Shown here one piece after another: positions 7,628-22,955 of a stretch of 24,777 bases of DNA. Source of the stretch: a virus; IMG/VR virus record IMGVR_UViG_3300006928_000075, positions 1-24,777 of that record. One strand, given 5' to 3'. Made by a program: the position numbers and the translations under genes. A model generated the notes under the pieces. It saw only the letters and a list, made by a program, of their open reading frames with translations, had not been told where the DNA came from and made no database searches. Within the stretch, counting starts at the first letter, position 1; each line of letters begins with the position of its first letter.

Positions 7628-8632
7628 ATGAGCAACAACGGAAAACCGACTGCTTTACACACAGATGGAGAATTAGCTACTTCCGCTTTTGAGAGTTTTT
7701 TAACTCCTCCAGAGGAAAAAGTTGTAGAAGCAGAAGAAACAGAAGTAGATGTTATCGAAGAAGAAGAGCTCCCTGAAGAAGCTGAACTTGAATTAGATGA
7801 AGCTGAAGACGAAGAAGACTTTGAATACGATGACGAAATTGATGACGAAGAACAATTAGAGGTTGAAGAAGAACAAGAGCAACCCACTTTATACACCATC
7901 CGAGTTGATGGCGAAGAAGTAGAGGTCACGCTTGAGGAACTCCAAAACGGATATTCACGTCAGCAAGATTACACTCGCAAAACTCAAGAGCTGTCTCAAC
8001 AAAGAAAAACTATTGAGCAACAGCAGAAAGAGTTAGCGGAAAGAGATGCTATTTATGCACAGCTGTTACCGAAGATGGAAGCCCAAATATCGGGCGAATT
8101 GGCAAACGAGCCAGATTGGACACAGTTGTATGAAGATGATCCCGTGGGTTATGTTCGTGAAAAGCAAATCTGGGATGATAGAAAAGAGAAACTAGCTGCT
8201 GCTCAAGCTGAACAACAAAGACTTCAACAAGAAGCATTTGATAAACAGCAACAGCAATATGCACAGATGGTGCAAGAAGGTCAGCAAAGACTCTTGGAGA
8301 TCATACCAGAATGGCAAAATCCTGAGACAGCGCAACAGGAAAAGCTAGCAATTCGTGAATATGGCATTAACGTCTTGGGGTATTCACCACAAGAGATGGA
8401 CTCTGTATACGACTACCGAGCATTACTTGGTTTAAGAAATGCGTGGCTTAACAGTAAAACTGTTGAGGCTGTAAAGAAAAAACCAACGCAGAAAGCGAAA
8501 GCTCGGGTTGCAAGACCTGGTACAACGAACCGACCAAAATCAGTAGCCCCTGTGAAAAAAGCAAAACAGGTTTTAGCAAAATCTGGCAAAGTCCAAGATG
8601 CTGCTAAAGTTTTTGAACAAATATTAAAGTAA
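7628..8632 (+). CDS. Capsid scaffolding protein
   Basis: Likely internal scaffold that guides capsid protein assembly and then leaves or is cleaved. Residues about 30-85 are extremely acidic (long Glu/Asp runs). A short folded patch (YTIRVDGEEVEVTLEELQNGY, about 88-108) follows, then a long Gln/Glu-rich coiled coil (about 110-220), and the C-terminus is strongly basic (KKKPTQKAKARVARP). An acidic start, coiled-coil middle and basic helical end that binds the coat are typical of scaffolds. It sits directly before the major capsid gene. The start is supported by AAGGAG at 7613-7618, 9 bases before the ATG. No protease motif is visible. Confidence 0.85.
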   Translation: MSNNGKPTALHTDGELATSAFESFLTPPEEKVVEAEETEVDVIEEEELPEEAELELDEAEDEEDFEYDDEIDDEEQLEVEEEQEQPTLYTIRVDGEEVEVTLEELQNGYSRQQDYTRKTQELSQQRKTIEQQQKELAERDAIYAQLLPKMEAQISGELANEPDWTQLYEDDPVGYVREKQIWDDRKEKLAAAQAEQQRLQQEAFDKQQQQYAQMVQEGQQRLLEIIPEWQNPETAQQEKLAIREYGINVLGYSPQEMDSVYDYRALLGLRNAWLNSKTVEAVKKKPTQKAKARVARPGTTNRPKSVAPVKKAKQVLAKSGKVQDAAKVFEQILK

Positions 8633-8648
8633 TTTAAAGGAATATATT

Positions 8649-9584
8649 ATGGCTAAAGTAACTAATGCTTTTGACACATATACGGCCACCGCTGATAGAG
8701 AAGATTTAAGTAATATCATTTACAACATCTCTCCAATGCAAACTCCGTTTATGTCCTCAATCGGAACAAGAAACGTAAAAAACGTAGTTTTTGATTGGCA
8801 AACTGAATCTCTACCAACACCTAGTGCTACTGGAGAATTAGAAGGGTTTGAACTTTCTAGAGCAGCATCAACTGCTACTACAAGGGCAAGCAATGTATGT
8901 ATGATCTCAAAAAGAGATGCAACTGTCACAGGCTCGCAAGAGGCTTCAGATGCAGCTGGTAAGAGATCAGAAATGGCACACCAGTTAGCTATTATGGCTA
9001 AAGCACTAAAAAGAGACATGGAAGAAGCTCTATGTAAAAAAGGTGCTAAAACAACTGGTAACGCTTCAACAGCTAGGGTAACTGGTGGTTTCGAATCTTG
9101 GATCACAACTAACGATTCAAGAGGAACTAACGGTGCTTCAACTGGTGGCGGAGCTGCTCCAACAGACGGAACTCAAAGAGCACTTACAGAAACACTTCTG
9201 AAAGACGTTCTTGAGCTTATGTTTGCTAGTGGTGCTGAACCAAATCTAGCTATAGCTGGCCCTCACAACAAGCAAGTGATTTCTGGTTTTACTGGAAGAT
9301 CACAAGCTAGGCAAATGATCGATGCTAACACTGTAGAAGCATCTGTATCTATCTACTCATCTGACTTTGGTGAACTGAAAATCGTTCCATCAAACAGATC
9401 AAGAGATAGATCTCTTCTATTAGTTGATCCTGAGTTTGCTAAAGTTTCTTACTTAAGAAACTTTGAGACAGTTGATATAGCAACTATCGGTGATGCTGAT
9501 ACTAAGATGATCGTAGTTGAGTACGGACTAGAAGTGAGCAATGAAGCTGCTCACGGTATAGTTGCCGACTTAAGCACATCTTAA
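8649..9584 (+). CDS. Major capsid protein, SU10/DUF5309 type
   Basis: Main shell protein of HK97 fold. The 311 residues begin NAFDTYTATADREDLSNIIY-like, then the NISPMQTPFMSSIG and FDWQTESLPTPS segments that mark the family known as DUF5309 or SU10 major capsid protein. The Thr/Ala-rich middle and the C-terminal LRNFETVDIATIGDADTKMIVVEYGLEVSNE strand-rich end also fit; key parts are at about 25-55 and 270-300. AAAGG about 7 bases before the ATG gives a good ribosome binding site. A strong terminator follows at once, which may set its high expression apart from the downstream tail genes. Confidence 0.92.
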   Translation: MAKVTNAFDTYTATADREDLSNIIYNISPMQTPFMSSIGTRNVKNVVFDWQTESLPTPSATGELEGFELSRAASTATTRASNVCMISKRDATVTGSQEASDAAGKRSEMAHQLAIMAKALKRDMEEALCKKGAKTTGNASTARVTGGFESWITTNDSRGTNGASTGGGAAPTDGTQRALTETLLKDVLELMFASGAEPNLAIAGPHNKQVISGFTGRSQARQMIDANTVEASVSIYSSDFGELKIVPSNRSRDRSLLLVDPEFAKVSYLRNFETVDIATIGDADTKMIVVEYGLEVSNEAAHGIVADLSTS

Positions 9585-11004: not shown

Positions 11005-11907
11005 ATGGCTGAAAAAGCCTATAATTATGGGAGATATAATAAGTCTCTCTATGATAATTTACAGTATGATGAAGCTGTTGCAACTTCAGCACAAACTTCA
11101 TCTGCATCTGCAACCCCACGTCTAACACTTAGCAGCACAGCTACAGCAGCTCAAACATCTGGGTTCTCTGCACAAGGTAGATTTGTTACTACCTCTATTG
11201 CAAATATACAAGCCAATTCAGGTGCATCGTTTACTGGTGAAGTTGTTAAATTCTTTAGTGCAACTATATCTGCATCTTCAGGCTTTACCGCTATCGGAAT
11301 ACAAGTAGATGTATCTACTGCAACGATAAGCGCAATATCTGATGTTTCAGCAATAGGAAGGCAAATAGATCGTGGATCTGCCACCATATCTGAAACCTCT
11401 AGTGTATCTGCAATAGGAACACAGATAGATCGTGGCGCAGCAACCATAAGTGGTGTATCAGGATTTAGTGCAGATAGCAGTATTGTTTTAGATGGTGTAG
11501 CCACTATTGCTTCAACATCTGGAGCGTCTGCTGTTGGAACACAAATAGATAGAGGATCTGTAACCATAAGTGCAACATCTAATGTTACTGCAAGTGGTCT
11601 TGTTATTTTATCTACCAATGTAACTATAGCGGCAGTTTCTAGTGTAAATGCGTTAGGTGGAATTACACATAGCGAATCTTCTCTGATATCACAAACAAGT
11701 GGTTTCAATGCTATTGGTGGTTTAAAATGGGAAGACATTGTAGTTCCAGACGAAAATTGGACGGATCAAGATGTAACAACAAATTGGACTGATGCAAGCG
11801 ATCCAAGCACTGCTTGGACAAACCAAACGGTAGCATCATCATCTTGGACTGATGTAAGTAATCCAAGTACAACATGGAACAAATTGGACGAACAAGAGGC
11901 AGCATAA
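11005..11907 (+). CDS. Repeat-built virion surface protein (20-residue units plus Trp repeat tail)
   Basis: The N-terminus (EKAYNYGRYNKSLYDN) is tyrosine-rich and may be an anchor. Residues about 45-239 are about ten copies of a 20-residue unit of type ATISATSxVSAIGTQIDRGS; the last eight are in perfect register. The last ~60 residues carry six Trp residues spaced 10, 9, 10, 10 and 10 apart (WTD-xxx-PST-W). The composition (Ser/Thr/Ala/Ile/Val) points to a beta-solenoid or stacked sandwich. Position between adaptor and giant fiber suggests a fiber or decoration role. No enzymatic motif is seen. Confidence 0.8.
   Translation: MAEKAYNYGRYNKSLYDNLQYDEAVATSAQTSSASATPRLTLSSTATAAQTSGFSAQGRFVTTSIANIQANSGASFTGEVVKFFSATISASSGFTAIGIQVDVSTATISAISDVSAIGRQIDRGSATISETSSVSAIGTQIDRGAATISGVSGFSADSSIVLDGVATIASTSGASAVGTQIDRGSVTISATSNVTASGLVILSTNVTIAAVSSVNALGGITHSESSLISQTSGFNAIGGLKWEDIVVPDENWTDQDVTTNWTDASDPSTAWTNQTVASSSWTDVSNPSTTWNKLDEQEAA
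11137..11721 (+). repeat. 60-bp tandem repeat in coding sequence (20-residue unit)
   Basis: Eight units begin exactly every 60 bases at 11260, 11320, 11380, 11440, 11500, 11560, 11620 and 11680 (the last cut short). Two more divergent units precede them (11137-11196, and one of 63 bases at 11197-11259). The unit is roughly [AV]TISxxSxVSAxGxQIDRGS. DRG is shared by units 2, 3 and 5 of the regular block and replaced in the others. Confidence 0.85.
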
Positions 11908-14900
11908 ATGGCAGACACTACAACAACTAATCTGAGTTTAATTAAACCAGAACCTGATGTATCTTTAGATTGGGGTACAAAACTTAATACTGATTTAGAC
12001 AGTATTGATGCTATTTTTAGTAGTTCTGGTACACAGGTTAATCTTAATCCTAATCAAATAAACTTTGCAGATAATAAGAAGGCCATCTTTGGAGCAGGTT
12101 CTGACTTACAGATTTACCATGATGGTACTGCTAGCATTATTAAGGATGCAGGCGCAGGTAATCTACAACTTAATGCAAGTAATTTTGTTCTAAATAATTC
12201 AGGTGACACTCAGAATATGATTACAGGTGTTGATGGAGGTTTTGTAAGATTATTTCATGCAGGTTCAACAAAGCTAGAAACAACCGCATCAGGTATAGAC
12301 GTTACAGGTACAGCAGTAACAGATGGTCTTACAGTAGCTGGCACATCACAATTAACCAATACTTCTTCTATAGATACACTAACATTGATAGGTAATACTA
12401 GCTCTGTTGCAGGTGTAAAACTACAAGCTGAAGAAGTCCACGGTGCTATGTATGGAATTAATATTGGCAATAATTTTGGCGGCCTTGCTTTTCATACAAA
12501 TAATAATGGAACTGTAGCAGAAAGGCTCAGAATAGATAATGCAGGTTTGGTTGGCATAGGAACGACTTCGCCATACGGCAAACTAACAGTTCAAAGTGCA
12601 TCTAATGGTGATACCTATTTTACAGGTGGTACAGCCAATTCGAGATTACTACATATTTCTACTTCTACGCATAGCGGTTACGCAAATGCAGGTCATAATT
12701 TTGTAGTTGCTTCAGGAGTAGGAGCATTAATCTTTGGTAACGCTACAACAGCTAATCTTCTTACAGTTGAAACTGGTGGCATAGATGTTACAGGTACAGC
12801 TACAGTAGATGGTTTGACTTCTAGTGGTGATTTAGTTGTTGATGATGGAGCTAGATCACTAACGTATGATGTCTCGGCAGGAGAACTAAACCATGCAGGA
12901 GCTACATTCCACATAAATAAAAGCAATGGTGTAGATGTAGCCATAGGAAACGATGATCTCTATGTAGACATGAGTACTTCAAGAGTTGGTATCGGAACTA
13001 CTACGCCAACCTATTTGTTAAATGTTATAGCAGGGGCAGGGGCTCAAACTATATTTCAAGCAGGACAAAGTGGCATTTCAAACGGCTACACTGTCAATAG
13101 TGATGGAACTAATCTAACACATCAATGGTATAACGATGCTGGGGAAGCAGCCAGAATCAATAGCAATGGGCGGGTTGGCATAGGAACGACTACACCTTCA
13201 TCACTTTTAGAGGTATATCATGGTAATCAAGCCCTTGGATTTACATCAGGAATTCTTTCATCTGCGAATGTAAGCGATTATACCGCTGGCAGAGGTGCTG
13301 GTATGACCATGCAAAATGTTGATGTTAATGTCGCAGGTATGTATGGCATTAGAGAAACAAGTAGTTGGAGAGGAGCACTTACATTTTATACTCATACAGA
13401 CGCTAGTGGTAATACTTTTGGTACTACATTTACTGAGAAAATGAGAATTACCAGTGATGGAAAAGTTGGTATCGGAACTGATTCGCCATCAGCAACTTTA
13501 GACGTAAACGGAACTACAGAAACAAACGCACTTACTATTAATGGTTCGGCACTAAAATACAAAGCATTTGGATCTAACTCCATAATGTTTGGAGATAATG
13601 CTACAGGAACTATTGATGCAGCAGATCAAAATACTGGAGTAGGTGTAGATGTTTTTGCAGCTTTAACGACTGGTGATAATAATACTGCTGTAGGTTTTAA
13701 TTCTTTAGCATCCAATACCACAGGTGGTGCTAATTCTTCTTTTGGTACTTATTCATTAGATGCAAATACTACAGGTAGTGAAAATACAGCAATAGGTAAA
13801 TCTTCTTTAGGAGCAAATACTACAGGGAATAATAATACTTCTGTAGGTAGACACGCTTTATTTTCTAACACCACAGCCAGTGACAATACAGCAGTCGGTA
13901 AAGATGCTCTATATTCTAATACCACAGCAGGTAATAACGAAGCATTTGGTAAAACTGCTTTATATTCTAATACTACAGGTACTCAAAATAATGCTATGGG
14001 TTCTGGGGCTTTGTATGCCAACACTACTGGAAATTACAACACAGCTATTGGTGGTGGTGCTTTAGACGCTAATACAACTGCCAGTAGCAACGTAGCAATT
14101 GGCTATGCCTCACTTACAACAAACACTACAGGTGAAGCTAATACTGCTTTGGGTTCTTATAGTTTACTTTCTAATAGTACAGGAAACTATAATGTTGCTT
14201 TAGGCAACAATGCTTTACGAACAAACACGACTGCTTCAAGTAATACTGCAATCGGACAAGCAAGTTTGTTTTACACTTCAACTGGTGCAGAGAATGTTGG
14301 AGTCGGTAGAGATTCTTTACATTTTAACACTACTGGTGCAGAGAACGTAGCAGTTGGATTTAGTGCTTTAAAGGCAAACACCACAGGAACACAAAATGTT
14401 GCGGTAGGTGAAGGTGCTTTACAAAGTCACACTACAGGTAGCTACAACGTAGCACTAGGTAGAGCATCATTAAGTGCTAATACTACAGCGTCTGGTAATA
14501 CTGCTGTTGGTAATTATTCTTTAGGGGTAAATACTACAGGAACAAGAAACGTAGCGGTTGGTGCGGGTTCATTAGACGCCAACACAACAGCAAACGATAA
14601 TACTGCCTTGGGTTATGATGCTATGTCATCTAATAACACAGGCGCACAAAACACAGCGGTTGGTGCGTATGCGCTTGATGCTAATACGACAGGAGCTTTT
14701 AATGTTGCTGTTGGTAGAGCAGCATTAAGTTCTAATACTACAGCAGAACGCAATACTGCTGTTGGAATTGCTGCATTAGAATTAAACACGACAGGAACAC
14801 AAAACACAGCTGTAGGAGCTAACGCACTAGATTCTAATACCACAGCAGATGCTAATACAGCGGTTGGATATAACGCTTTAGCAGCAAACACTACAGGAAA

Positions 14901-16407
14901 CGATAATACTGCTGTAGGAAGAACTGCACTTGAAAACAATACAACTGGACAGTTCAATGTTTCAGTTGGTAAAGCTGCTTTAGCACAAAATACTACAGCA
15001 AGTAATAATACTGCTGTAGGTACTTTAGCTCTTAATTTAAATACTACAGGAGGTAGTAATACTGCTTTTGGTGCTTTTGCCTTAGATGCCAATACAACTG
15101 CTAACTATAACGCAGCTTTCGGTGATTATGCTCTAGGATCTAATACTACGGGAGGAGTAAATACAGGGATTGGTAGCAATGCCTTATCAGCAAACACAAC
15201 TGGCATTGCAAACACAGCAGTAGGAGCTGATTCTTTAGATGCCAATACAAATGGTGGTTATAATACAGCTATAGGTTATGTAGCTTTAGGGGCTAATACT
15301 ACAGGAAACAACAATACATCAATAGGTGCTTCTACTCTTATAGCAAACACTACAGGGGCTGATAACGTAGCAGTTGGTCAAGGTGCTTTACAAGATAATA
15401 CTACAGCTTCTTATAACACAGCCGTTGGTAGAGATGCTATGGCAAATAACACCACAGGAGAATCTAATACAGCTCTTGGTCACAATGTTTTAAATGATAA
15501 CACTACAGGTTCATACAACGTAGCTATTGGTTCTGGTTGTTTACAACTAAATACAACAGGTGCGAGAAACACAGCAGTAGGACAAAATGCTCTAGACACT
15601 AACACTACAGGTTCTAATAACACAGCGTTTGGCCTTAATGCTTTAGATGATAACACTTCAGGTTCTTTTAACTCTGCGTTAGGTAGAAGCTCTTTAGCTA
15701 ATAATACAACTGCAAACAACAATACAGCCGCTGGTTACTATGCTTTAGAAGTAAATACTACTGGTTCAGGCAATGCTGCGCTTGGTAGAGATGCCTTGTT
15801 AAATAACACTACAGGTACAGAGAACGTAGCTTTAGGATTTGATGCTGGGGGTGATGTAACAACAGGTAGTAACAATTTCTTTATTGGGAAAGGAGCGGGT
15901 ACTGCTACTGCACCAGGAGGAAGCCCAGGCGGTACGATTACCACTGGTAATAACGAAGGTGTAATTGGTAATGGTAGTCATTCTAAAATTAACGTACAAG
16001 TTTCTTTAACAGTAGCATCTGACGAAAGAGATAAAACAGACTTCCAACCTCTATCTGCTGGATTAAATTTTGTAAATGAATTAACGCCATACACTTATTA
16101 CTGGGATAAACGTGCTAAATACGTTGATTGGGATGCAAACCCAGATACAGATTTAAATACAATAGAACATGATGGAACTCATAAAGAGGACTGGATGGAC
16201 ATTGGATTTAAAGCACAAGACGTTATAGCTTTAGAAGAATCTATAGGTCATAATTTAGCAAATAAAACAAACCTTGTTTCTAATCAAACAGGGGATGGTA
16301 AACAATATCAGTTACAATATGAAAAGTTTGTACCGATATTGGTTAAAGCAATACAAGAACTTTCGGCAAAAGTCGAAGAATTAGAAAGTAAATTAAACGG
16401 AGAATAA
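11908..16407 (+). CDS. Giant tail fiber with 44 pentapeptide-like 17-residue repeats and S74 chaperone
   Basis: Probable receptor-binding fiber, 1499 residues. Residues 1-45 (TTTNLSLIKPEPDVSLDWGTKLNTDLDS) are the common virion anchor motif. Residues about 50-570 are mixed beta shaft with four VGIGTxxP units (GIGTTSP 216-222, GIGTTTP 361-367 and 424-430, GIGTDSP 521-527) and two IDVTGTA-xxDGL segments. Residues 575-1322 are 44 tandem 17-mers (NTAVGxxALxxNTTGxx). The C-terminal Peptidase_S74 intramolecular chaperone starts at S1371 (SDERDK); it normally trimerises the fiber and cuts itself off just before that Ser. A short coiled coil ends the protein. The repeats resemble YadA-head beta-roll repeats in style. 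The start directly follows the previous stop. Confidence 0.9.
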   Translation: MADTTTTNLSLIKPEPDVSLDWGTKLNTDLDSIDAIFSSSGTQVNLNPNQINFADNKKAIFGAGSDLQIYHDGTASIIKDAGAGNLQLNASNFVLNNSGDTQNMITGVDGGFVRLFHAGSTKLETTASGIDVTGTAVTDGLTVAGTSQLTNTSSIDTLTLIGNTSSVAGVKLQAEEVHGAMYGINIGNNFGGLAFHTNNNGTVAERLRIDNAGLVGIGTTSPYGKLTVQSASNGDTYFTGGTANSRLLHISTSTHSGYANAGHNFVVASGVGALIFGNATTANLLTVETGGIDVTGTATVDGLTSSGDLVVDDGARSLTYDVSAGELNHAGATFHINKSNGVDVAIGNDDLYVDMSTSRVGIGTTTPTYLLNVIAGAGAQTIFQAGQSGISNGYTVNSDGTNLTHQWYNDAGEAARINSNGRVGIGTTTPSSLLEVYHGNQALGFTSGILSSANVSDYTAGRGAGMTMQNVDVNVAGMYGIRETSSWRGALTFYTHTDASGNTFGTTFTEKMRITSDGKVGIGTDSPSATLDVNGTTETNALTINGSALKYKAFGSNSIMFGDNATGTIDAADQNTGVGVDVFAALTTGDNNTAVGFNSLASNTTGGANSSFGTYSLDANTTGSENTAIGKSSLGANTTGNNNTSVGRHALFSNTTASDNTAVGKDALYSNTTAGNNEAFGKTALYSNTTGTQNNAMGSGALYANTTGNYNTAIGGGALDANTTASSNVAIGYASLTTNTTGEANTALGSYSLLSNSTGNYNVALGNNALRTNTTASSNTAIGQASLFYTSTGAENVGVGRDSLHFNTTGAENVAVGFSALKANTTGTQNVAVGEGALQSHTTGSYNVALGRASLSANTTASGNTAVGNYSLGVNTTGTRNVAVGAGSLDANTTANDNTALGYDAMSSNNTGAQNTAVGAYALDANTTGAFNVAVGRAALSSNTTAERNTAVGIAALELNTTGTQNTAVGANALDSNTTADANTAVGYNALAANTTGNDNTAVGRTALENNTTGQFNVSVGKAALAQNTTASNNTAVGTLALNLNTTGGSNTAFGAFALDANTTANYNAAFGDYALGSNTTGGVNTGIGSNALSANTTGIANTAVGADSLDANTNGGYNTAIGYVALGANTTGNNNTSIGASTLIANTTGADNVAVGQGALQDNTTASYNTAVGRDAMANNTTGESNTALGHNVLNDNTTGSYNVAIGSGCLQLNTTGARNTAVGQNALDTNTTGSNNTAFGLNALDDNTSGSFNSALGRSSLANNTTANNNTAAGYYALEVNTTGSGNAALGRDALLNNTTGTENVALGFDAGGDVTTGSNNFFIGKGAGTATAPGGSPGGTITTGNNEGVIGNGSHSKINVQVSLTVASDERDKTDFQPLSAGLNFVNELTPYTYYWDKRAKYVDWDANPDTDLNTIEHDGTHKEDWMDIGFKAQDVIALEESIGHNLANKTNLVSNQTGDGKQYQLQYEKFVPILVKAIQELSAKVEELESKLNGE
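13630..15873 (+). repeat. 44 x 51-bp tandem coding repeat (17-residue unit, no indels)
   Basis: By reading the translation I count 44 consecutive units of exactly 17 residues: 44 x 51 = 2244 bases, with no insertion or deletion. The consensus is N-[TV]-A-[VIL]-G-x-x-[AS]-L-x-x-N-T-T-[GA]-x-x. A 45th degenerate unit (NFFIGKGAG...) follows. The first unit (NTGVGVDVFAALTTGDN) and the 44th are the least regular. Units differ widely at DNA level, so this is an old array and not a recent slippage product. Confidence 0.95.
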
Positions 16408-20420: not shown

Positions 20421-20799
20421 CAACGTAGTTGATTTTAAGCCCACATGGGAAATGGAGTGGGATCGTTGTAAGCCCTGGATAGAAGAAGCTTTAAAATACC
20501 AAGATTCCTATACAATAGACCATGTAGAAGATAAAATAAGTAATGGATTGTTCCATTTGTGGGCTGGTAAAGAGTCTGCATTGGTAACAGAATTTGTAAT
20601 ATTTCCAAATCATAAAGTATTAAATTTACTTTTTTGCGGTGGAGACTACAATGAATTGACAGAAATGCTACCATCTATAGAGGCTTTCGCTAAAGCAGCT
20701 GAATGTAAAAGGCTGTACGGAGGCGGAAGAAAAGGATGGTCAAGGAAGTTAAAGCATTTAGGTTTTGAAGAAGAACACATGATAAGAAAAGAATTATGA
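20404..20799 (+). CDS. Acetyltransferase-fold (GNAT-like) phage protein, 131 aa
   Basis: The core pattern ALVTEFVIFPNHKVLNLLFCGGD, then ELTEMLPSIEAFAKAAECKRLYGGGRKGW, matches the short GNAT-like proteins that recur next to tail genes of podovirus-like phages. The usual acetyl-CoA loop (Q/RxxGxG/A) is not evident, so it may be a degenerate, non-catalytic fold. The first ~35 residues are helical (WEMEWDRCKPWIEEAL). Role in the virion or in assembly is unknown. It overlaps both neighbours (17 bases upstream, ATGA downstream). Confidence 0.72.
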   Translation: MQKVTNNVVDFKPTWEMEWDRCKPWIEEALKYQDSYTIDHVEDKISNGLFHLWAGKESALVTEFVIFPNHKVLNLLFCGGDYNELTEMLPSIEAFAKAAECKRLYGGGRKGWSRKLKHLGFEEEHMIRKEL

Positions 20800-21848
20800 G
20801 TAAAGGCGCAACAACAGCAGAAGCTACAATACCAGAATATCAGAAACAACAGCAACGTAGTCTGTTTGGTGCTGCACAAGCAGTAGCCAATCAACCTTTT
20901 GTACCATACACAGGTGCAAGAGTAGCTGGTTTTAATCCAGATCAACTAAGGCAGTTTCAAGCCACTCGTGGTTTATTTGAAACAGGTATGCAGTACGATC
21001 CTATGTCTGGATTGGCTGGACTTGCACAAGCTCCTACTCCTAGTCTTTTAGAAACAGATATAGGTGCTTATCAATCACCTTATACACAACAAGTTATAGA
21101 CACTACATTGGGTGATATAAGAAGAGAACGAGACATAGCACAACGTCAAGCACAAGAATCAGCGATTCGTGCGGGTGCATTTGGTGGATCTCGTTCAGCA
21201 ATTATGGAAGCTGAATCCACTAGACCTTATGTAGAACAGATGGCAAGAACTTCAGCTGGTTTAAGAGAGGCTGGCTTTGGTCGTGCTTTAGGTGCTGCTG
21301 AATCGGATATAGAAAGACAAATGAGAGGCAGACAATTCCAAGCTGGATTGCTCGGTGGATTACAAGCAGAACAAGCCAGAAGACTTGGAATGTTAGGCGG
21401 TATAGGAGTACAACAACAAGCTCTACAACAGGCTGGACTGGATATTCCATATCAAGAATTCCAAAGAGCATTGGCTTACGGGCCTCAACAGATTGGTTTA
21501 TTAAGTCAAGCAATGGCTCCAACTACTGCTGGTCAAAGAACAGAACAAGATGTTGGTCTTGGAAATATATTAGGAACTGGTGCTCAACTTGCTGGTGCAG
21601 CATTAATGGGCGGAATGAATCCATTTGGTTTTTTGTCGGATGAAAGATTAAAAGACAACATAGAATATATTGGTAAGTCTAAAAATGGTCACAAAATATA
21701 TACTTGGGAATGGAACGACATTGCTAAAAAGCTAGGAGTTGACACACCAACAATCGGTGTTCTTGCTCAAGAAATAATGAAGTATATGCCTGAAGCGGTC
21801 ATGGAAGACAAGAACGGATATTACAGAGTTAATTACGGAGTTTTGTAA
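20796..21848 (+). CDS. Candidate ejection protein with C-terminal S74 domain
   Basis: 350 residues. The N-terminal two thirds are helical and Gln/Ala/Arg-rich: FNPDQLRQFQATRGLFETG, SPYTQQVIDTTLGDIRRER, AGAFGGSRSAIMEAEST, MARTSAGLREAGFGRAL. This is the style of internal virion proteins injected with the DNA in podoviruses; the AGAFGGSR motif recurs in such phages. The last 70 residues are an S74-type domain (S281 in SDERLK), shorter than in the two fibers. It starts in ATGA overlap with the previous gene and is directly followed by the next ATG. Ejection role is inferred from composition and position; a fiber-like or tail-tip role is the alternative given S74. Confidence 0.7.
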   Translation: MSKGATTAEATIPEYQKQQQRSLFGAAQAVANQPFVPYTGARVAGFNPDQLRQFQATRGLFETGMQYDPMSGLAGLAQAPTPSLLETDIGAYQSPYTQQVIDTTLGDIRRERDIAQRQAQESAIRAGAFGGSRSAIMEAESTRPYVEQMARTSAGLREAGFGRALGAAESDIERQMRGRQFQAGLLGGLQAEQARRLGMLGGIGVQQQALQQAGLDIPYQEFQRALAYGPQQIGLLSQAMAPTTAGQRTEQDVGLGNILGTGAQLAGAALMGGMNPFGFLSDERLKDNIEYIGKSKNGHKIYTWEWNDIAKKLGVDTPTIGVLAQEIMKYMPEAVMEDKNGYYRVNYGVL

Positions 21849-22955
21849 ATGGCAATAGATTCATTGGTAAATATGAAACAGATGTTTGGATCACCAACAC
21901 CTGATCCTTATGGTATAACACAAAGACTGCAAACTGGTTTAGGTCAACAGCGAGCACAAATATCTAACAATATTGCACAAGATAAATCAGACAAAAATCA
22001 AAAATTGGGCTTGATGCTGTACGCATTAGGCGGTGCTTTAAAAGGTGATGAAGACTTTGTTGTAAAAACATTGCAATTTAAAGAAATGCAAGAAGGCAAG
22101 AAGAAAGAGAAAGAACAAAAAGAAGCTTGGGAGAAAGTAAAACAAAGTGCATTAATACAATCAAATCCAAATATTGCCACACTTGCAAATGCACTAACTC
22201 CAGAACAAGGAATAAGTCTTGCTGTTGAAATGGAAACAAGAGAGCCTAAAAAAAGAGAAATTCTTGAAGCAGCAGATGGAAGAAAAAGATATGTAGATAC
22301 TGGAGAGCTTGTTTTTGAAGATGTTGAAGTTTCTGGTACACCACAAAAGATTATTAGCAATGTAGATAAATCTGTAGAGAACACAGTTGAAGAAGTTGGT
22401 TTTGTAGAACCTTTTGCACAAATGGAAGACGCTTTTGGTTTAGGAGATGCGTTAGGAGAAGCTGCAAACATAACATTCAGAAGAATTGGTTTAGAACCAT
22501 TTGAAAATATTGGTCAGTCAGCGAGGGCAAGAGACAATCTTAATTTAGAAATTAAAACAACCTTGGCACAAGATTTTACTGGCAGAGTAAACCAACAACT
22601 TTTACAACAAATAGATGAGTTGCTGCCTAAATCAAGTTTGACATCAGAAAAAGATGCACAAGCTAAATATTCTTTAATGAGAGATAGGGCAAGAAATAGA
22701 ATTCAGCGTTTAGAGCAAGGTATTAAGTCAGGTATTTTATCGGAAACACAAATGGCAACTGCCAGCGATGTTCTTTATAGAACAAAACTGCTAGAAAAGA
22801 AAATTGACGCTGCTGTACTTTCTTTAGAGTCTGAAACAACTGATTTAGACCCTAAAAAAACTAATTTAGACCCTAAAAAAACTAATTTAGACTCTACTGT
22901 AATTTTAGATACAAACGAAACACAAAGATTTAAAGATTTATACAGACCACGTTAA
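21849..22955 (+). CDS. Candidate internal virion/ejection protein, 368 aa
   Basis: Charged helical protein with no enzymatic motif that I recognise. A Gly-poor helical N-terminus (QRLQTGLGQQRAQISNNI) leads to a hydrophobic LGLMLYALGGALKG patch (about 51-65). Then Lys/Glu helices follow (EGKKKEKEQKEAWEKVKQ), an acidic middle (VSGTPQKIISNVDKSVENTV) and helical repeats to the end. A 7-residue tandem repeat (T-x-LDPKK) sits near the C-terminus. It begins one base after the previous stop. The run of three helical genes at the end of the late region is the usual place for podovirus ejection proteins; this is the basis for the call. Confidence 0.6.
   Translation: MAIDSLVNMKQMFGSPTPDPYGITQRLQTGLGQQRAQISNNIAQDKSDKNQKLGLMLYALGGALKGDEDFVVKTLQFKEMQEGKKKEKEQKEAWEKVKQSALIQSNPNIATLANALTPEQGISLAVEMETREPKKREILEAADGRKRYVDTGELVFEDVEVSGTPQKIISNVDKSVENTVEEVGFVEPFAQMEDAFGLGDALGEAANITFRRIGLEPFENIGQSARARDNLNLEIKTTLAQDFTGRVNQQLLQQIDELLPKSSLTSEKDAQAKYSLMRDRARNRIQRLEQGIKSGILSETQMATASDVLYRTKLLEKKIDAAVLSLESETTDLDPKKTNLDPKKTNLDSTVILDTNETQRFKDLYRPR
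22839..22895 (+). repeat. 21-bp tandem repeat in coding sequence
   Basis: Copies ACTGATTTAGACCCTAAAAAA (22839-22859), ACTAATTTAGACCCTAAAAAA (22860-22880) and a partial third (ACTAATTTAGAC...) give T-D/N-LDPKK twice plus TNLDST. The copies are nearly identical in DNA, so this expansion looks recent, unlike the old repeats in the fibers. Confidence 0.9.

Follow-up and report, generated by a model that had tools for sequence, protein, structure and literature searches.

The DNA analysed here, referred to throughout as the window, is the IMG/VR virus record IMGVR_UViG_3300006928_000075 over its full 24,777 bases, and the subject of this report is a tail fibre or tailspike gene within it whose product carries a long tandem repeat. 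Judged by its portal (Pfam PF23899, 2e-191) and its major capsid protein (PF17236, 3e-87), both of SU10 type, the contig is a SU10-like podovirus, and the carrier of the fibre is a marine bacterial virus. The 1499-residue fibre protein matches PHROG 4636 (tail spike protein, 6e-161) as well as PHROG 6002 and 23837 (virion structural protein). Its array of repeats, named here after the NTAVG motif, is preceded by an adaptor and a stretch of VGIGT motifs and is followed by a cap and a C-terminal Peptidase_S74 (S74) domain (Table 1).

The 44-unit array and its age

An earlier sequence-only reading had placed 44 gapless 17-residue units at 13630-15873, and both the count and the boundaries hold. 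Cutting in 17-residue steps from residue 575 yields units 0-43 (residues 575-1322), and the tandem 17-residue N-x-A-[VIL]-G-x-x-A-[LG] units that mark membership of the repeat family are present in the window. N1 and G5 occur in 44/44 units, T14 in 42/44, T13 in 41/44 and L9 and N12 in 40/44 each; columns 6, 7, 10, 11, 16 and 17 are variable. A circular-profile Viterbi segmentation that allowed indels introduced none in the 44 units and left the segmentation unchanged, with a score of 1769, whereas 20 shuffled versions of the protein scored 27 or less. Two details of the earlier description are corrected here: the units at the two edges (NTGVGVDVFAALTTGDN and NVALGFDAGGDVTTGSN) are degenerate, and past the 44 units another turn, NFFIGKG..., begins at 15874.

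All 44 units differ from one another at both the protein and the DNA level, with mean pairwise identities of 51% (protein), 58% (DNA) and 44% (third codon positions). Where two units carry the same amino acid, the codon is shared in 47% of positions, slightly above the 44% given by a whole-array codon shuffle, and this excess vanishes against a within-column shuffle (z at most 2.2 over nine lags); synonymous sites in the array are near saturation. An all-against-all comparison of the units at protein and DNA level revealed no readable block duplications in the window, where the best two- to five-unit DNA matches did not surpass those of codon-shuffled controls and no self-block exceeded 75%. 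Given this synonymous divergence and multi-unit matches at control level, we regard the units as old, with no history of block duplication legible in the window. The alternation of NTTG and NTTA units, previously read as a hint of higher-order duplication, is not significant (NTTA in 12/44 units; adjacent A-A pairs 1 versus 3.0 expected, P=0.12; lag 5, P=0.07) and lends that idea no support. A hidden four-unit rhythm in the window was also considered and discarded, as lag 4 carries no signal. That an array of this age contains no small indels indicates that the fixed 17-residue period stems from selection on unit length and not from recent copying.

Related arrays and the rules of length change

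L003, L004 and L005 are near-identical phages (99.8-99.98% at the DNA level), and their arrays match that of the window except for two sites, both of which are in L005. At 15304, L005 carries G1133R, which replaces the usual G or A of unit column 15 with R; an assembly error may explain it. Relative to L003, the window has a cluster of differences at 8554-8690, at the end of a 334-residue open reading frame (ORF) and the start of the capsid gene; otherwise the two are near-identical.

The closest rearranged relative, L006, differs from the window in its N-terminal half and has 58 successive 17-residue spacings. At the DNA level, units 0-4 of the window are 91% and units 33-41 are 83% identical to L006, a block of window units 4-8 is displaced by 26 whole units, and the interiors between these anchors are replaced by different numbers of units (block scores of 0.84-1.49, against a null maximum of 0.65). 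On this comparison the array ends are orthologous and the interior differs only by whole units. Arrays therefore change by whole units, and an array with its S74 tail moves between different N-terminal adaptors.

Such turnover bears on two other accounts of the constant period. In one, the units are young copies made by recent tandem duplication or slippage, and the period is constant for no other reason. Growth by unequal crossing-over is frequent in tandem arrays, and L006 itself holds a diverged duplication ten units apart (units 3-5 versus 13-15, 83% DNA identity). The units of the window, however, are all different, at only 44% third-position identity, and their multi-unit matches lie at the codon-shuffled level, so that synonymous saturation and the lack of self-blocks lead us to reject this account as very improbable. 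In the other, units recombine in register, and this process, not a folding constraint, keeps their length fixed. Whole-unit turnover between the window and L006 fits this, as gain and loss in 51-bp steps requires recombination in register, but the DNA lacks the homogeneity that such recombination would produce, and small within-unit indels would be left in place. It is improbable as the cause of the fixed length, and probably acts jointly with selection. The selection on unit length proposed from the sequence is thus borne out for this old array, both by the synonymous saturation and by the exclusively whole-unit changes relative to L006.

The same scan for relatives returned a second large marine group with a regular 17+17+17+21 pattern, that is, a 72-residue block of four turns. 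L012 (6307-7386), L014, L018 and L043 are examples among many more, all S74-terminated fibres of uncultivated marine viruses. These fibres belong to the same repeat family as the window (profile probability 99.5%) and share its cap and S74 domain, but they have four unit types, whereas a single unit type makes up the array of the window, which lacks 21-residue units. In 24 proteins, 119/131 spacings between successive 19-21-residue units equal exactly four units, compared with 11% after shuffling. A further scan gave at least 560 relatives, and among 67 proteins taken from its best 79 loci, 470/528 long-unit spacings equal four units (11% shuffled), so that the share is 89-91% over the two sets; being seeded with the second group's own peptides and sharing some contigs with the first set, this sample is not wholly independent. 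Each of the four unit types is distinct, with identities of 0.54-0.59 for the same phase across blocks versus 0.18-0.40 between phases. No description of the 72-residue four-turn block was found in a limited literature search.

The 17-residue unit is also found in annotated Pelagibacter, Roseobacter, Methylophilales, Prochlorococcus and Bacillus phages, where 17 is dominant and 16, 18 and 21 are minor lengths. S74-terminated fibres of PHROG 4636/6002/23837 (for example Pelagibacter phages HTVC111P and HTVC112P, Methylophilales phage Venkman, Prochlorococcus phage P-SSM2 and Bacillus phage SPO1 gp2.52) carry the same NTAVG repeat, and several have similar S74-type C-termini or an S74 annotation. 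Their annotations are mostly tail fibre, tailspike or structural protein, and the isolate relatives HTVC111P, HTVC112P and P-SSM2 bear the first of these. Compared with the 44 uninterrupted units of the window, they have fewer units (13-42 segmented), more units of 16, 18 or 21 residues and other N-terminal parts. A degenerate DNA pattern run against bacterial and archaeal genomes extended the family to loci that may be prophages or cellular adhesins and which, among the matches listed, lie mostly in Bacteroidota, Verrucomicrobiota and Patescibacteria, have 17 as the dominant length with minor lengths of 16, 18, 22 and 24, and in 36/80 cases carry an SDxRxK motif in the same frame. In the available portions of papers on contractile injection systems and polinton-like viruses, no description of the NTAVG repeat was found.

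Comparison among relatives, suggested by the sequence-only reading as a check, gives a divided answer: L006 differs by whole units, and the second marine group carries 21-residue units. The strong length selection claimed from the sequence accordingly describes the window, in which 17 is held throughout, but not the family, where relatives carry a phased 21-residue unit every fourth turn and cellular relatives have units of 16, 22 and 24. From the four-turn rhythm of the relatives we conclude that selection acts on length locally and in a phased manner and does not fix it absolutely.

Predicted fold and its resemblances

AlphaFold2 was run on residues 1102-1499 as a monomer, a fragment covering units 31-43 (13 units), the next turn and the S74 domain. 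The predicted model is a solenoid with a per-residue confidence (pLDDT) of about 95 over units 31-43. Its main strand falls at columns 2-4 of each unit (fragment residues 2-4, 19-21, 36-38 ... 223-225), exactly 17 residues apart, in line with the earlier proposal of one 17-residue solenoid turn per unit. The 72-residue block of L012 is modelled as a similar solenoid, with lower confidence (about 76) that is lowest near the end of the 21-residue unit. We consider it likely that the array forms the rod of a trimeric, S74-assembled fibre in which each unit makes one solenoid turn, and this is the best explanation of the evidence overall. Several points weigh against it: the model is of a single chain, its S74 part is poorly modelled (pLDDT mostly 32-67), relatives tolerate units of 16, 18, 19 and 21 residues, and a fold search of the array model against the PDB gave no match at E<=0.001, with leucine-rich-repeat proteins as weak top hits (E 0.03).

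Other searches gave a similar picture. The L012 block model has no PDB fold match at E<=0.001, its weak best hits again being leucine-rich repeats; phmmer of the array against PDB sequences gave only a weak left-handed-helix-like chain (E 0.02), and profile A1 gave nothing. A coatomer hit of profile A2 (E 0.007) was judged a chance match. Clear fold matches came from the viral structure library BFVD, namely FhaB-like adhesins of Bodo saltans virus (E to 6.8e-14) and of other giant viruses of eukaryotes, together with many S74 phage proteins. The NTAVG repeat family is thus widespread: phages, giant viruses and Bacteroidota all carry it, and the PDB searches gave it no confident match by sequence or by fold.

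The resemblance of the repeat to YadA-head units, noted from its motif, stands as a weak profile similarity. When the 17-residue unit was aligned with the 14-residue YadA unit in hhalign (probability 68%, E 4.9e-5), the score of 25.3 exceeded the maximum of 11.3 in 25 column-permuted controls, and the alignment spans three and a half units with a 3-residue gap in every one. These values refer to a YadA profile built from only two YadA-head proteins, whose units are mainly of 14 residues. A true YadA-type trimeric left-handed beta-roll, its 14-residue turn enlarged by three residues in one loop, would account for the recurrent gap, and one pelagiphage tail fibre is reported to contain a YadA domain (PMC3909814). 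YadA heads of trimeric autotransporter adhesins also share with the array a local T-A-[VI]-G-x-x-A motif, repeated turns of fixed length and trimeric rods. The lateral surfaces of YadA act as adhesins, which would again suit a YadA-type roll. Against this, the period is 17 and not 14, a search of the window with the YadA_head family PF05658 gave nothing at E<=10, no YadA chain is among the 50 best PDB folds listed, and YadA proteins have a bacterial outer-membrane anchor where the fibre has a phage adaptor and an S74 domain. We consider a YadA-type roll rather unlikely; the array may work like a YadA rod, but it lacks two defining features of that family, the 14-residue turn and the Pfam match. 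A single-sheet right-handed solenoid or a three-sided left-handed helix of hexapeptide-like type, in place of a beta-roll, is a slightly better but still doubtful candidate. It draws on a Pfam similarity to LbH_EIF2B (2e-4, under the curated cut-off), on the leucine-rich-repeat fold hits and on some prasinovirus FhaB proteins predicted as right-handed single-sheet solenoids 13.6-21.2 nm long (PMC12906663), a parallel that would hold if they carry the NTAVG repeat. Every one of these scores lies under the usual thresholds, however, and the Hexapep and leucine-rich-repeat families themselves show no match.

Modules, assembly and role of the fibre

The modules around the array are listed in Table 1. 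Residues 1-47 are probably a virion attachment module, the VGIGT stretch is probably a stalk of repeated beta modules, and residues 557-574 probably form an N-terminal cap turn. As the second fibre shares the first 47 residues and has an S74 domain of its own, both fibres probably attach to the same kind of site.

Table 1. Features of the fibre gene and of the second fibre gene in the window
Feature	Coordinates	Strand	Basis
Tail fibre / tailspike ORF, 1499 aa	11908-16407	+	Sole long ORF covering the repeats
N-terminal adaptor, residues 1-47	11908-12048	+	62% identical in the second fibre (17107)
Stretch with four VGIGT motifs (residues 215, 360, 423, 520)	12550-13479	+	Motif positions
Putative solenoid entry NSIMFGDN..., residues 557-574	13576-13629	+	Inferred
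44 gapless 17-residue units	13630-15873	+	Consensus N-T-A-V-G-x-x-A-L-x-x-N-T-T-G-x-x
Last turn and C-terminal cap NFFIGKG...GSPGG...VIGNGSHSKINVQVSLTVA	15874-16017	+	Kept in both relative groups (alignment A1)
Peptidase_S74 domain, putative intramolecular chaperone	16018-16404	+	PF13884, 1.6e-8
Second fibre, 478 aa	17107-18543	+	N-terminal adaptor as in the 1499-aa fibre; own S74 domain, SDYRLK at residue 370

The 300-residue protein encoded immediately before the fibre (11005-11907) has a 20-residue period of its own (SxxSAIGxQIDRGSATIS); every motif spacing in it is a multiple of 20. It has no Pfam or PHROG match. Elsewhere in the window, a tandem 21-bp repeat of 3.5 copies (22823-22896) encodes LDPKKTN near the end of a 368-residue ORF.

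The PF13884 match covers residues 1371-1442 at 35.1 bits, against a curated cut-off of 22. Ser1371 and Lys1376, which lie five residues apart in S-D-E-R-D-K and are invariant in 30 relatives (alignment A1), are the predicted catalytic dyad. Domains of this kind trimerise and self-cleave, and in endosialidases the Ser/Lys dyad cuts the chaperone off after trimerisation (PMC3742443). The fibre resembles these intramolecular chaperones in its Pfam match and invariant dyad, but carries an NTAVG solenoid upstream of the domain in place of an enzyme. By analogy we infer a trimer that would be cut before Ser1371, leaving a rod whose predicted mature C-terminus is the conserved last turn and cap region. 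A further S74 domain, with SDERLK, lies at the C-terminus of the protein at 20796-21848, which matches a DNA ejection protein family (phrog_4287); such a domain is unexpected in an ejected internal protein.

In the mechanism that we propose, the array would form the rod of the tail fibre, with each 17-residue unit making one turn of a parallel beta-solenoid. The N-A-V-G part would supply the main strand, A8 and L9 would pack into the core, and the variable columns 6, 7, 10, 11, 16 and 17 would face outward. The S74 chaperone would assemble three chains and then cut itself off. The mature rod would have about 45 turns ending in the cap, and the length of about 21 nm put forward from the sequence would follow if the rise, assumed in the product 44 x 0.48 nm, is indeed 0.48 nm. 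Because strands must stack in register, single-residue indels would be purged and array length would change by whole turns only.

Such a rod may serve as a rigid spacer whose repetitive, variable side face could also bind the cell surface. A stronger version, in which the array is itself the main receptor-binding surface through many weak lateral contacts and is not mainly a spacer, is conceivable but not our favoured view. The outward columns are variable, the interior of the array turns over quickly, and conservation among relatives gives the predicted mature tip the look of a cap; variability and rapid turnover would suit a lateral binding face, but the variability may simply reflect relaxed constraint on the surface.

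The fibre is thus a further member of a common, structurally uncharacterised family, in which the repeat is real and, in the window, unusually clean; this uniformity recommends the array for expression and structural studies. Of greatest interest is the four-turn rhythm seen in its relatives. Tentatively, the NTAVG repeat may represent a beta-solenoid class with no solved relative, whose 17-residue turns can carry a decorating loop of 4 residues at exact intervals of four turns. If so, side loops of the trimer would line the fibre as a regular ladder, with one rung about every 1.9 nm at a rise of 0.48 nm, and gain and loss of whole turns would set both the length and the decoration of the fibre. 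Comparison with the relatives yields testable rules for the evolution of phage rod length and surface, with changes by whole turns only and four-residue loops only at every fourth turn.

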